Shown in pieces: positions 3,012 through 13,200 of a DNA stretch of 39,799 nt (positions within the stretch are counted from its first letter, which is position 1; each line of letters begins with the position of its first letter). The DNA comes from a virus. The notes under the pieces are model-generated. The model saw nothing but the letters and a program-made list of their open reading frames with translations. It ran no database searches and was not told where the DNA came from. The translations under genes and the position numbers were made by a program. The stretch spans positions 1-39,799 of the IMG/VR virus record IMGVR_UViG_3300022744_000058. One strand, given 5' to 3'.

Positions 3012-3301
3012 CTATTCCTCAGCGTTGCGTTATTCTTCAAATCTTCCGCGATCATTGCTATAGCCCGGTTATTCGTTCCGATCAGTTCACAGTGCGCCTG
3101 ACAGACTTCTCCATGAATGTACTGGAGCGCGTCCCGCCGAAAATTCTTGTTAAGCAATACATCCATCACTGCCTGTACGTTAATTTCCACCAGAAGCCTT
3201 CTGATCGGATCTGGTGTGCCTTCCCTGATATACTCAGATGTGTTGCATATAGCCTGAAAAATCACCCGCCTCAGAACGTGCCTGTTTAATACTGGTTTCA
3301 C
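3008..3301 (-). CDS. Hypothetical protein
   Basis: A 97-residue protein, probably all helical, with no signal peptide or membrane segment. It is coupled on both sides by ATGA overlaps to the DUF1367-like gene and to rusA, so translation is very likely. Two cysteines and two histidines (VCQAHC near 66-71 and the first histidines) do not form a convincing zinc site. I do not recognise a family; the context implies a replication or recombination accessory. Confidence 0.7.
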   Translation of the reverse strand: MKPVLNRHVLRRVIFQAICNTSEYIREGTPDPIRRLLVEINVQAVMDVLLNKNFRRDALQYIHGEVCQAHCELIGTNNRAIAMIAEDLKNNATLRNR

Positions 3302-3759
3302 TTCAGATCAGGCATCACGCCTGCCATTTTTTCTATCGTTTCCGCATCCAGATCAGGCCAGTACTTCTGCGCTATGTGATCGCAGAACCTGCCCACAAGC
3401 TTCCTGAATTTTTCTTCTTCCATGTTTTTGAAACTGATACTCTCTGGCATCCGTATCGGAATTTCCGGCATTCCCGGAATCAGCCTTGCCATGATTACCT
3501 TGCAGCAGATATCACCCTCGATCTGTACACGCTTTATCACGTCATGAGCATCCATGCCTTCCAAGTCGCTGATATTGTCCGCACATATCTTGGCAATGGC
3601 GTGCAGATACCGATGCATGGCCACGCTGCGCTTATCACGTACCACGATGTGTATGGTCTGCCCCAATCCAAGCCCGAGCGCGCGCAATTTTTGCCCAGCA
3701 TCAGCGTCCAGTGGTGTTAACGTACCCTTCCCGACTTTCATTGCCACCAATTCAGACAT
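3298..3759 (-). CDS. DUF1367-like phage protein
   Basis: A 153-residue protein. It begins with a strand-rich part ending in the basic RDKRSVAMHRYLHAI (about residues 42-56) and carries the C-terminal motif PESISFKNMEEEKFRKL near residues 107-123. This arrangement is that of the phage DUF1367/NinB-like group, whose members sit in replication-recombination operons next to RusA; no reaction is established. I chose ATG 3759, with GGGAGAG upstream, over an in-frame TTG at 3801 that lacks a ribosome site. It is the first gene after the structured gap. Confidence 0.6.
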   Translation of the reverse strand: MSELVAMKVGKGTLTPLDADAGQKLRALGLGLGQTIHIVVRDKRSVAMHRYLHAIAKICADNISDLEGMDAHDVIKRVQIEGDICCKVIMARLIPGMPEIPIRMPESISFKNMEEEKFRKLVGRFCDHIAQKYWPDLDAETIEKMAGVMPDLK

Positions 3760-3919
3760 TTCTACTCTCTCCCGGTCGCGCCGTTTTTTTCTTCGCTTCA
3801 ACCATAGTCTCTCTAAACCTTTTATGCCATTGTCATCCTGTATCCTGGACGAAATATGGTCTTTTGAGAATATAAACCAACTTCAAAGTCAAAATCTAAA
3901 CCTTCGTATCATCAACCAG

Positions 3920-4120
3920 AATCGCTTTTGGTGAGCATGATGCAGCCATCCTCACAAGGAAGGATGCACCTTTACAATTTCGCTCTCGGAGCCGCAATTG
4001 ACGCGTCAGTCTTTCGATTCATCGGCACTAACTTCGCCACCGATCCGGGTTTCTCAAATCTTTCCCACAGTACCCGGTTATCCCGTCACCCCTGCCGTTG
4101 AGACCCCGACAAGTGACGCG
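3920..4120 (-). ncRNA. Candidate structured RNA in a 366-bp gap
   Basis: No credible coding frame covers 3760-4125, yet the stretch is full of pairable segments. Read on the minus strand: CGCGTCA (4120-4114) with TGACGCG (4008-4002) closes the domain with 7 perfect pairs. CCGGGT and ACCCGG pair (4077-4072 with 4050-4045). The loop of that hairpin holds a segment (4057-4052) complementary to TCTCAA at 4103-4098, allowing a pseudoknot. ATCGGT/GCCGAT pair (4044-4039 with 4026-4021). A hairpin spans 4000-3975 and CATCCT/AGGATG pair (3966-3961 with 3952-3947). Such a set could be a regulatory RNA, a processed operon leader, or a replication-origin structure. No known RNA family is recognised and strand is inferred from the operon. 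Confidence 0.45.
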
Positions 4121-4125
4121 GCTGA

Positions 4126-4968
4126 TTACTCAGCTAACTTCACCATCTGACGTACAGCCTGAACCACGTTAAAGATTCCGCCTGACAAGTGAACATCGTT
4201 CCAGTCCTGACCAACGATCTCCGGCATTAAGTAGGGAAGTCCTGTAGACTGCGCGGCGCGCTCTCCCGTACCGGATTTATCGTTATCTGCCGCAACAACA
4301 TCACCAATCAGCTTGGCAACCTTCACCATGTTTCCTGCTGAAAAACACACGACGATGGACACATCCATACAACCCATCTTTACTGCTTTAGCGAGTGACA
4401 AGCCAGTGGCATACCCCTCGCACAAAATATTTACCTTGCCACGACCAATGCGATGCACTGCGTACTCAGCCCTCATGCATGGTGCAAAACGCTTGTGGAA
4501 CATGCCTTCTTCTTCGGATATGTACTGACACCCTGTCAGTTCATCGGCGGCTACGGAGTACATTGGAATAACAAGGAAAGAACGGTTCTCTGTAGTGATA
4601 ACCAGCCCCTTTTCATCTTTGAAACCTTTTTCTTCCAGATAGGAATGTTCTAGCAACTCACACGAATTAAGAACCTTTGCCGCATTGATGGCAGCTTCTC
4701 TGCGAGCCTTTGCAATAAGCTTGTCCTGCTCACGCTTCTTCGCTGCCCATGCTGCTTTTTCTGCTGGAGTGAATTCTTTATCACTCTCGAACCATACTGG
4801 CTCTTCTGCAAATTCCCAGTTCTGAACCCATCCACCTTTACCATCAAAGCAATACGAACCATTCTTTGTGTTCGGATGCGATTCAGTGCCGCACCGCTTG
4901 ATGCTCCCAGATGTATCCAGATGACGGATGACTAAGCCGTGACTTTGGGCGAATTGCAGGAAACTCAC
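4126..4968 (-). CDS. Phage DNA primase with TOPRIM domain
   Basis: A 280-residue primase-like protein. The N-terminal part has a zinc-finger-like segment (RCGTESHPNTKNGSYCF, about 25-41) resembling primase template-binding domains. A charged helical linker follows at about 68-100, then a TOPRIM fold with the glutamate motif LCEGYATG at 182-189 and the metal-binding ADNDKSG at 227-233. The end GQDWNDV is typical of phage Toprim primases. It probably lays RNA primers at the fork with the neighbouring helicase, whose stop it overlaps by four bases. It is shorter than gp4-type primase-helicases and has no helicase domain, consistent with a separate helicase gene. Confidence 0.88.
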   Translation of the reverse strand: MSFLQFAQSHGLVIRHLDTSGSIKRCGTESHPNTKNGSYCFDGKGGWVQNWEFAEEPVWFESDKEFTPAEKAAWAAKKREQDKLIAKARREAAINAAKVLNSCELLEHSYLEEKGFKDEKGLVITTENRSFLVIPMYSVAADELTGCQYISEEEGMFHKRFAPCMRAEYAVHRIGRGKVNILCEGYATGLSLAKAVKMGCMDVSIVVCFSAGNMVKVAKLIGDVVAADNDKSGTGERAAQSTGLPYLMPEIVGQDWNDVHLSGGIFNVVQAVRQMVKLAE

Positions 4969-6485
4969 TTGCGCCCCCTTGCAACACTTCTTGCATATGC
5001 AATCTGTTTCTGTTTGATCTTGCCGTATACAAGAGTACTGACAGGCACATGTTCTGCTGTGATAAAATTAAGTGATGACGGTGGCTTTGATCCTGTAATG
5101 TCCTGATAGATGTACCAAGCTCGTTTGCTTGCCGTATCTGGATTCCCGTTCAGTCTGGTATAGGTACATACCTGATTCCATATTTCAGATTCATCGAACC
5201 CAGTGCGCTTTTTAACTGGAGAAACCTCAATCAGAGTTCCTTCCTCATGATCAATAAGGTTGCGTTTCTTTCTCTCATACCCGCATGACACACAACGCTG
5301 GCCGCATGGGCTGTATCCACATTCAGGACACTTCGGCGGATCTTTCTCGTCCATATCCTTTCGGACTTCCTTGTCCATGCGTTCGCCAGCATCAAGTTCA
5401 CTTATCCCATTGAAATAAATGTCTGCATAATCGTTAGCGAATCTGACAATGTTTCCGCTAAAATCAAGCAGCAAACAATCTTCTTTATTTGAAGCAGAAC
5501 GCATTCCCCTGCCCCACATCTGAATCGCAGTAGAAAGTGATTTGCGAAGCGGACGGCAATCCATGACGCATGACACGTCAGGCACATCAAAGCCCTTTGC
5601 AAGCGCTTCTACGCTTACCAGTACGCGAATTGCACTGTCAGGCTTTCTGAATTCCTTGAGCAGAACATCGCGTTCCGCATCAGTAGTATTCGATGAAAAC
5701 ACAGCGGCCATAACACCGGCCTCGTTGAACTGCTTGCACATGGCTTCGCAGTGACCAATGGTCGCTCCGAATAATATGGACTTTCTTGATTGAGCTACTT
5801 TCAACCACTCTTTAACAACGTCACCGATGATCTCCATACCGCGCTTTGCAGCCGCGCCATCAGTCCATTCACCGCCAATAGTCTTGGCCCCTTCCATATT
5901 TATCTTCACGCCAGAAAAGACACGCATAGGAACCAACACGCCAGCTTGCGTTAATTCATGCATGGATGACGCGTTCACTACTCTGGAGAATATCTTTCCG
6001 AGACCTTTTGAGAATGGCGTTGCACTCAGTCCAATAACAACAGCGCTACACGATTGCACGTGCTCAGTCCATGCTGAATACATCGTATGCGCTTCATCAA
6101 TGATTATTAAGTCTGCTTCAGGCCATCCACGCCTGGCCAATGTTTGAACACTGCCGATCTGGAATGGAGCGTAAAGATTAGTTCGCCAGTGATTGGCTTG
6201 AATGATTCCGTGATTTGTTAATCCATACTTATCAGAAGTATCTGATGTCTGACCGATCAGGGTTGTGCGGTCACAAGCAAAGATGACGCGCTTGTATTTC
6301 TTTGTTGCTTCCGCAGCCAGCATCAGTCCTATATATGTCTTGCCTGATCCAGTCGGAGACATAAGCAACTGACAGCGATGGCCATCACGCAAACCATGAC
6401 GTAGCTTTTCCAGCGCAGCAGCCTGAAACTCACGCGGCGGCGGGAACGATCCATCAATCTGCTGTGTCATGACGGACTCTTGCAT
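4965..6485 (-). CDS. SF2 DEAH-box helicase with C-terminal zinc finger
   Basis: A 506-residue superfamily 2 helicase of the phage UvsW/RAD25-like type. Walker A is SPTGSGKT at 43-50, the Walker B box DEAH at 130-133, motif III SATP at 154-157, motif VI QMWGRGMR at 322-329. A four-to-five-cysteine zinc ribbon (CPECGY...CVSCGY) lies at 386-403, and a C-terminal helical part is present. It is predicted to unwind DNA for replication with the adjacent primase. Start: ATG at 6485, 2 nt after the ParB-like stop; a second ATG at 6470 is possible and neither has a strong Shine-Dalgarno. Confidence 0.9.
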   Translation of the reverse strand: MQESVMTQQIDGSFPPPREFQAAALEKLRHGLRDGHRCQLLMSPTGSGKTYIGLMLAAEATKKYKRVIFACDRTTLIGQTSDTSDKYGLTNHGIIQANHWRTNLYAPFQIGSVQTLARRGWPEADLIIIDEAHTMYSAWTEHVQSCSAVVIGLSATPFSKGLGKIFSRVVNASSMHELTQAGVLVPMRVFSGVKINMEGAKTIGGEWTDGAAAKRGMEIIGDVVKEWLKVAQSRKSILFGATIGHCEAMCKQFNEAGVMAAVFSSNTTDAERDVLLKEFRKPDSAIRVLVSVEALAKGFDVPDVSCVMDCRPLRKSLSTAIQMWGRGMRSASNKEDCLLLDFSGNIVRFANDYADIYFNGISELDAGERMDKEVRKDMDEKDPPKCPECGYSPCGQRCVSCGYERKKRNLIDHEEGTLIEVSPVKKRTGFDESEIWNQVCTYTRLNGNPDTASKRAWYIYQDITGSKPPSSLNFITAEHVPVSTLVYGKIKQKQIAYARSVARGRK

Positions 6486-11654: not shown

Positions 11655-13200
11655 CATAGAGCAAGGCACGCCAGAATGGCATGAGTTCCGGCAGAAACAT
11701 TTTAATGCATCAGAAGCAGCCGCAATGCTTGGTATATCTCCCTACATGACACGGGACGAACTGCTGAAGAAAAAGGTTTATGGCATTGAAAAAGAGCATA
11801 GCGAATATACGCAGAAGCTTTTTGCAGAAGGTCACAGGCTGGAACAAATGGCAAGGCTGGAAGCAGAGAAAGAATTAGAAATGGAGTTATTTCCTGCCGT
11901 TGGATCAAATGGGGTATGTGCCGCCAGTTTTGATGGGACCAGCATGGACGGAAAGGCTATATGGGAACACAAGATCATCAATTCTGACTTGAGAAAAATT
12001 GTTTACGGTCAACCTGAAACCTTGCCGGATTATTACATGGCACAGGTTCAGCATCAGTTATATGTGTCTGGCGCAATGTATTGTTTATTTACTGCTTCAA
12101 ATGAAAAAGAAAATAAAGCTGTTTATATCGGGCCAGATGAAGGGTGGTTTGAAAGGATTACAACCGGATGGGCGCGATTTGCAAAAGACATGGGAACTTA
12201 CATTCTGGAAGAAACCAAGCCACAAGTAACCGGAACAGCACCAGAGCAACTCCCTGCCCTGTTTATTGAGTTAACCGGCAAGGTCACTGCAAGCAACCTG
12301 CAGGAATTCAGGGAGCGCGCTATGGATGTGATCGGTGCAATCAATACAGACTTGCAGACCGATGAAGATTTTGCTGATGCGGACAAGACGGCAAAGTGGT
12401 GTAAGGACGTTGAAGCAAGGCTGGATGCTGCAAAGCAACATGCGCTGGCGCAAACACAGTCAATAGACGATCTATTCAAGACACTGGATGCTGTTCGGGA
12501 AGAAGCCAGGCAGAAACGGTTATCTCTGGAAAAACTGGTGAAGGAACGCAAGGATTATCTGAAGGCGCAGATTATCCGCGATGGTCAGGACAAATTCAGA
12601 AGCATGATTAGAGTGCATATGCTCGATTTGCTGATGTCCCTGAATGAGCAATGCAGGGATTCTCTTTTGCGCAAGATAGAGGAAAAGTTTATCGGCGAAT
12701 TCGTTGCGGCAACAAAAGGATTGAAGACGATAGATAGCATTAAGAGTGCTGTTGATGCCACACTATCCAAAGCATTCTCTGATGCGCCTGTGTTGATTTG
12801 TGATTACAAAAGCATGGTTGAATGGCTTGCATCTTCCGGGCATGCAGAATATGAAAACACATTGTTACGTGATTTGCCAGAACTGCTGTTCAAATATTCT
12901 AAAGACATAGAAGCATTCTATCTGGTTGTGCAATCCAGAATCTCAGAGCATCAGAAACTGATTGCAGCACAGGAAGAAAAAGCGCGTATCGCTAAAGAGC
13001 AGGCAGAGAATGTCCCGGAAGTAAAGCCAGAGCCAGAAAAGAAGCAAGAGCATATTTTGATACAGGCAACATCATCAACAAGATTTGGCAATCCGGTGGA
13101 TGCGTTCCTTGCCACATATGGCCCTGATTCCAAGAAAAGATACAACGTAATACTGAATAATTTTTACAACTATCTGAAGGATAACGGCCATGTTAAATAA
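11641..13200 (+). CDS. YqaJ-type exonuclease, extended C-terminus
   Basis: A 519-residue protein. The first about 210 residues are a YqaJ/lambda-Exo-like nuclease domain: QGTPEWHEFRQKHFNASEAA (about 9-28), the active-site strand IWEHKIIN near residue 103, and the helix MAQVQHQLYVSG near 131-142. It should resect double-stranded ends for the ERF protein. About 300 further residues are mostly coiled-coil and helical, much longer than the usual 200-350 residue YqaJ proteins. This tail may bind DNA or partners or be a fused second domain; I do not recognise it. Confidence 0.88.
   Translation: MITHDIEQGTPEWHEFRQKHFNASEAAAMLGISPYMTRDELLKKKVYGIEKEHSEYTQKLFAEGHRLEQMARLEAEKELEMELFPAVGSNGVCAASFDGTSMDGKAIWEHKIINSDLRKIVYGQPETLPDYYMAQVQHQLYVSGAMYCLFTASNEKENKAVYIGPDEGWFERITTGWARFAKDMGTYILEETKPQVTGTAPEQLPALFIELTGKVTASNLQEFRERAMDVIGAINTDLQTDEDFADADKTAKWCKDVEARLDAAKQHALAQTQSIDDLFKTLDAVREEARQKRLSLEKLVKERKDYLKAQIIRDGQDKFRSMIRVHMLDLLMSLNEQCRDSLLRKIEEKFIGEFVAATKGLKTIDSIKSAVDATLSKAFSDAPVLICDYKSMVEWLASSGHAEYENTLLRDLPELLFKYSKDIEAFYLVVQSRISEHQKLIAAQEEKARIAKEQAENVPEVKPEPEKKQEHILIQATSSTRFGNPVDAFLATYGPDSKKRYNVILNNFYNYLKDNGHVK

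Follow-up and report, generated by a model that had tools for sequence, protein, structure and literature searches.

In a 39.8-kb virus record, taken over its whole length and called the window here, the replication operon on the minus strand is interrupted by a gap between a primase gene and the gene that follows it, and the locus raises the question of what this gap encodes. An earlier reading made from the sequence alone described the gap as free of genes, and this was confirmed: from the primase stop (4126) to the TTG at 3801 that begins the next gene, the sense strand has no open reading frame of at least 60 amino acids. The sole open reading frame overlapping the gap is antisense (3554-3934, plus strand), and if a later ATG served as the downstream start, the gap would be about 40 nt longer. 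The same reading saw the gap as richer in G and C than its surroundings, which did not hold overall, G+C being 0.470-0.486 in segments covering the gap versus 0.44-0.52 nearby; only a 120-nt core is raised (0.57). No tRNA or tmRNA was found in the window. Downstream of the gap and on the same strand is a gene for an RtcB-type RNA ligase (1372-2685; PHROG 1075, 6e-150); it did not cluster with any gene from the other loci.

The minus strand from 4120 to 4001 matches the Rfam family RF02932 (Betaproteobacteria-1) with a score of 103.5 bits, compared to a gathering cut-off of 49.4 bits (E 1.3e-18), and the match includes the conserved CUGUGGGAA and GGUGGCGAAG motifs. The 5' end of the RNA is only a few bases past the primase stop codon. 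A structured RNA within the replication operon, as the sequence-only reading had proposed, is therefore supported both by this score and by covariation among homologs; the proposal that it was new is not, since the family is already catalogued. RF02932 is typed as an sRNA in Rfam, with no recorded function, and a literature search returned no paper naming RF02932 or Betaproteobacteria-1. A blastn search of phages with the window sequence gave no match. The RNA is nevertheless present, unannotated, in two public phages, MW202545 and the isolated Acidovorax phage AP1 (OM049504, at about 11856-11979 of the record); both were reached only via the RNA of a relative or via gene homology. Homologs were obtained from about 150 loci overall. 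A motif search of viral contigs gave 60 and then at least 120 stretches, with a few chance matches in coding sequence left out from the first 60; 106 distinct homologs were aligned for the analysis of mutual information, and formal pair counts were made on 54 diverse homologs, including those of AP1 and MW202545.

Table 1 Features of the gap and its neighbouring genes in the window (positions in window coordinates; percentages paired and changes refer to homologs).
Feature	Position	Strand	Remarks
Helicase gene, same operon as primase	4965..6485	-	PHROG 16, 2e-75; Pfam ResIII and Helicase_C
Toprim primase gene	4126..4968	-	Directly upstream of the RNA; PHROG 2249, 8e-31; Pfam Toprim_3
Full conserved RNA element, about 199 nt	3922..4120	-	5' end 4120, 3' end is the u2 word; Rfam core and 3' extension conserved in homologs
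RF02932 match	4001..4120	-	Model positions 1-120 of 120, full length
Helix H1 (4117-4112 with 4090-4085)	4085..4117	-	82.7% paired; both-side changes in 6/6 pairs
Pseudoknot 1 (4095-4092 in H1 loop with 4070-4067 at H2 loop start)	4067..4095	-	99.0% paired; both-side changes in 3/4 pairs
Helix H2 (4076-4072 with 4050-4046)	4046..4076	-	Inner four pairs 97.6% paired, compensatory changes in all
Pseudoknot 2, H5 (4060-4058 in H2 loop with 4018-4016)	4016..4060	-	99.4% paired; both-side changes in 3/3 pairs
Helix H3 (4043-4040 with 4025-4022)	4022..4043	-	Interlocked with H4 as pseudoknot 3; 96.8% paired; compensatory changes in two variable pairs
Helix H4 (4032-4028 with 4009-4005)	4005..4032	-	95.6% paired; 33 double changes in one pair
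Hairpin H7 (4000-3996 with 3979-3975)	3975..4000	-	Loop holds u1; covarying columns in 106 homologs
u1: CTCCGAGAGCGA	3980..3991	-	In H7 loop; direct-repeat partner of u2; concerted evolution
Hairpin H8, between u1 and u2	3941..3968	-	Predicted; variable hairpin at same place in homologs
u2: CACCAAAAGCGA	3922..3933	-	3' end of conserved element; following sequence unconserved between homologs
Gene-free stretch after u2	3802..3921	-	AT-rich with short purine-rich repeats in homologs; a group property, weak in the window
NinB/Orf recombination gene	3298..3801	-	Directly downstream; PHROG 319, 2e-19

Each of the three helices in the Rfam model (H1, H2 and H4) shows compensatory changes in the 54 homologs. 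Pseudoknot 1, pseudoknot 2 (H5) and helix H3, which are absent from the Rfam structure line, bring the supported fold to six helices and three pseudoknots. Its 27 pairs are formed in 93.0% of cells, compared to 68.6% after shuffling, with 349 doubly changed cells (99 shuffled); the covariation score is 0.640, as against 0.180 after shuffling and no more than 0.117 for slid versions. The helices were picked partly by mutual information on an overlapping alignment, so these counts are not fully independent of discovery; the distance of the fold score from the slid controls makes this a minor concern. That the RNA of the gap is an RF02932 RNA with this six-helix, three-pseudoknot fold is near certain.

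The specific long-range stems drawn in the sequence-only reading are not part of this fold. Its 7-bp closing helix (4120-4114 with 4008-4002) can be formed in the window sequence; among the 54 homologs 46.7% of its cells are paired versus 47.2% after shuffling, with no covariation, and its strands fall in two other helices. A pseudoknot with 4103-4098 is likewise present in this sequence and behaves similarly in the same homologs (52.5% paired, 49.5% shuffled, no excess of covariation). The energy advantage over shuffled sequence is weak, with z-scores of -1.98 for the 120-nt core, where 8 of 200 shuffles did at least as well, and -0.70 for 3820-4125, and minimum energy was set aside as proof of an RNA for this reason. 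The reality of the RNA is shown by covariation, not by energy. An apparent likeness, by eye, to motifs of group I introns was also dropped; the motif positions vary and no Rfam match accompanied them.

Conservation extends approximately 80 nt past the Rfam model, to about 3922. This 3' domain comprises, in order, hairpin H7 with the loop GGCUCC-G.., a GAAGG-like motif, the variable hairpin H8 and the end CACC-A... The H7 loop holds a word of 5-9 nt (u1) that is repeated at the 3' end of the RNA (u2), and this word varies widely between RNAs (e.g. AAGCAA, AGGTATC, TCCAGCA, GGGTAAC) while matching within each. In the mutual-information scan of the 106 homologs, u1/u2 column pairs rank among the base pairs and agree by identity, not by complement. 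The mean shared word is 6.72 nt, compared to 4.09 nt (s.d. 0.13) when partners are permuted (0/20,000). Furthermore, in 48 disjoint pairs of close relatives identical substitutions occurred in concert 70 times at the true offset, compared to 2-10 times at nine control offsets; at 68 sites in these same pairs one copy alone had changed, so that agreement is strong, not perfect. The shared word of the window is short (AGCGA and a flanking near-match), and the rule thus rests on the family, not on this copy. Judged by these alignments, the identity of u1 and u2 is an unusual and statistically strong rule.

Identity maintained by concerted change, with no complement nearby, calls for a partner common to both copies. 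The complement of the word was not clearly enriched in the RNA or its flanks (48 loci with an ungapped word), and 16 contigs contained neither a systematic complement nor a systematic third copy of the word elsewhere in the phage. An antisense or internal-guide model was rejected on the first of these grounds. A host RNA is an unlikely partner because the word differs between close relatives, and a protein is a possible one that would need to follow every change of the word. With no enriched complement and no systematic third copy, the DNA strand itself is left as the natural partner: as u1 is identical to the non-template strand at u2, the template strand there is automatically complementary to u1. 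The word is about three quarters purine, compared to 54% in coding sequence, as expected for stable RNA:DNA hybrids.

In phages, the RNA was present in exactly one copy in each of the 20 virus contigs searched, and it is co-oriented with its neighbours almost throughout: with cro-like genes in 52 of 54 cases, and with primase (28/28), helicase (28/28), ParB-like (24/24) and downstream early-region (31/31) genes in every case. Its place in the operon is variable, either after cro or after primase. The sequence behind u2 is 66-70% AT with a positive GC skew of up to 0.40; the words ACAGTA, TACAGG and TATATA are enriched there, and short direct repeats occur in 65% of loci versus 37% after shuffling. 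In two thirds of loci a T-run immediately precedes the RNA, often as the end of a second structured unit.

This second unit, approximately 100-130 nt in length, adjoins the 5' side of RF02932 in many loci and is absent from the window. It consists of a 5' hairpin, an inner stem and an intrinsic terminator, with a pseudoknot between loop and 3' strand that was recognized by eye (examples are L005:4079-4182(-), L086:7464-7559(+), L010:441-539(-) and L124:6884-6977(-)). A sigma-70-like promoter precedes it in several loci. A model built from 12 sequences matches more than 40 of 80 sources, and a permissive search of one locus gave no Rfam family match. Other observations concern single phages. 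In Pseudomonas phage PS-1 (AP014684), the place held by RF02932 in other phages is taken by 613 nt of gene-free sequence, flanked by cro and helicase/primase (L223:2852-3464), which folds far more stably than shuffled sequence (z -3.04, 0/100 shuffles) and has no Rfam match. A viral contig with RF02932 contains a match to the Hammerhead type II ribozyme (L086:4325-4382, plus strand) at 38.1 bits, just above the cut-off of 37 bits, and five or six tRNA genes are arrayed between primase and RNA in MW202545 (L171, 2209-2781).

A replication-origin element was among the functions suggested for the segment by the sequence-only reading, and it is the mechanism that we rate highest, as a tentative proposal held at well below even odds: the u1 loop would pair with template DNA at u2 and form an R-loop that starts phage replication, as in ColE1. 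The RNA would be made within the early or replication transcript and act in cis. With the polymerase at u2, the already folded RNA would present its u1 loop, which could then pair with the template strand of u2. This pairing would stabilize an RNA:DNA hybrid that extends into the sequence after u2, rich in AT and purines, and the R-loop might provide a primer, an open strand for loading of the adjacently encoded phage helicase and primase, or both. DNA pairing, the R-loop and priming are steps that we infer, starting from the observed fold, u1/u2 rule and location. Some observations count against such an origin. AT- and purine-rich stretches are also usual before genes. The structured unit with a terminator-like T-run just upstream in many phage loci raises the question of how the RNA is transcribed there. 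Moreover, the RNA also occurs in several copies on chromosomes, with a conserved upstream block, which is unlike replication origins. The GC-skew minimum, located within 10% of the contig's extent from the RNA in 9 of 16 contigs, is too confounded by gene strand to serve as origin evidence.

Of 398 genomes from one Burkholderiaceae-type family, 57 have such chromosomal copies above the cut-off, often 2-4 per genome and sometimes several within 3-40 kb (multi-copy loci L225-L273, L172 and L178). In the copies that were compared, a conserved block of about 100 nt precedes the RNA, u1 and u2 are mostly intact, and about 70 nt more follow; the outer flanks are unrelated and lie beside ordinary genes, and some copies are broken. 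A few are found next to defence genes (type I restriction-modification, Hma), and most are not. In one locus (L066) genes that by eye resemble a type I restriction-modification operon follow the RNA at a distance of 470 nt on the same strand, and in another (L218) the copy adjoins HmaC of the Hma defence system. A counter-defence role, also put forward earlier, found nothing in the analysis to support it. The multi-copy chromosomal RNAs weigh most heavily against a role in replication alone, and favour explanations by a trans-acting or a mobile RNA.

The RNA could be a free-standing, trans-acting non-coding RNA of phages and chromosomal elements, working as an RNA-protein particle or regulator, with u1 and u2 as identical sites for one partner. 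The dispersed copies with unrelated flanks and a conserved upstream block, the sRNA type in Rfam and the stable pseudoknotted fold are consistent with this explanation. Strict co-orientation in the early operon would be needless for such an RNA, however, no conserved protein accompanies it across all contexts, and a protein reader would have to follow a word that changes in step even among close relatives; we consider this explanation rather unlikely.

The early-operon position, often directly after cro and only in sense orientation, and the nearby terminator-like T-runs, seen in two thirds of loci, would also suit a cis-acting antitermination or anti-pausing RNA, which stays on the polymerase as nascent RNA so that early-operon terminators are read through. 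HK022 put is a precedent for this, with about 70 nt and two stem-loops (PMC9378689). The RF02932 RNA does not have this form, it often lies late in the operon, after primase, and the identity of u1 and u2 would be left unexplained, making antitermination an unlikely function.

A guide-like RNA of a recombination system or mobile element, in the style of the IS110 bridge RNA, would use its u1 loop to recognize its own end or insertion site at u2. Several chromosomal copies per genome with unrelated flanks point in this direction, as do two genomes that have the left flank and RNA in common and diverge within about 30 nt after u2. At one chromosomal locus (L261, position 13455, plus strand) the left side of u1 seems joined to the right side of u2 with the middle lost, as by recombination; simple slippage between direct repeats would explain this deletion as well. 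Against a guide function, neither recombinases (the DEDD type among them) nor transposases turned up beside the RNA in phage loci, judged by a scan of twenty proteins of the window and by the most frequent gene clusters near 150 loci, and the phage contigs carry a single copy of the RNA each. A search for mobile insertion via joined flanks in two genera found no empty site, and some broken copies occupy the same ancestral site. We regard a guide of this kind as improbable. A ribozyme cutting or joining RNA at two similar sites (u1 CUCC/G and u2 CACC/A) is more improbable still. The interlocked pseudoknots, which resemble ribozyme cores in general form, and the presence of two similar sites in a single RNA speak for it; against it, the RNA contains no guide complementary to the shared word and matches no Rfam ribozyme family.

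Pairing of u1 with the DNA at u2, the reading we prefer, would have a wider meaning. Although the odds are against it, the RNA may recognize its own DNA locus through a pseudoknot-supported 3' hairpin whose loop repeats the sequence of the RNA's own 3' end, the word drifting freely as long as the two copies agree. This would be an undescribed form of RNA-directed self-recognition, used in phages for the start of replication or for acting on their own operon, and shared with free-standing chromosomal RNA genes. RF02932, an orphan entry with no function, now has a full fold, a place in phage replication operons and a concerted u1/u2 word that makes it directly testable. If the word reads DNA, it would be a new example of RNA-directed self-recognition and would point to an RNA-based start of replication for phages that encode helicase and primase, and in which none of the genes was recognized here as an initiator.

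Compared with known systems, the window RNA is a clear member of RF02932 with an anatomy much richer than recorded. It matches the Rfam entry over its full length, its homologs recover the three consensus helices, and both are found in Burkholderiales genomes and viral contigs; the entry ends after the first 120 nt and includes just three hairpins, to which the homologs add three pseudoknots, the 80-nt 3' domain and the u1/u2 rule. Like HK022 put, it is a cis-encoded structured RNA of phage early operons (PMC9378689). In contrast to the RNA described here, put is limited to about 70 nt and two stem-loops, and has no repeat resembling u1/u2. In the bridge RNA of the IS110 family, a loop sequence equals a DNA stretch of the same element, as u1 equals u2. 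The RF02932 RNA differs in that no recombinase gene was found with it, it is single in each phage contig, and its loop matches one place, beside the RNA itself. The parallel for the proposed mechanism, ColE1 RNA II, has a spacing of about 250 nt between the corresponding segments, compared to approximately 50-60 nt between u1 and u2. Fold and sequence differ as well, and priming by the RF02932 RNA is a step that we propose. In ColE1, a stable R-loop requires the interaction of an rG stretch in the transcript with a dC stretch in the template (PMC4412123). Both ColE1 RNA II and the RF02932 RNA are structured transcripts near replication functions, and in both an upstream segment of the RNA matches sequence further along its own non-template strand (PMC4412123).
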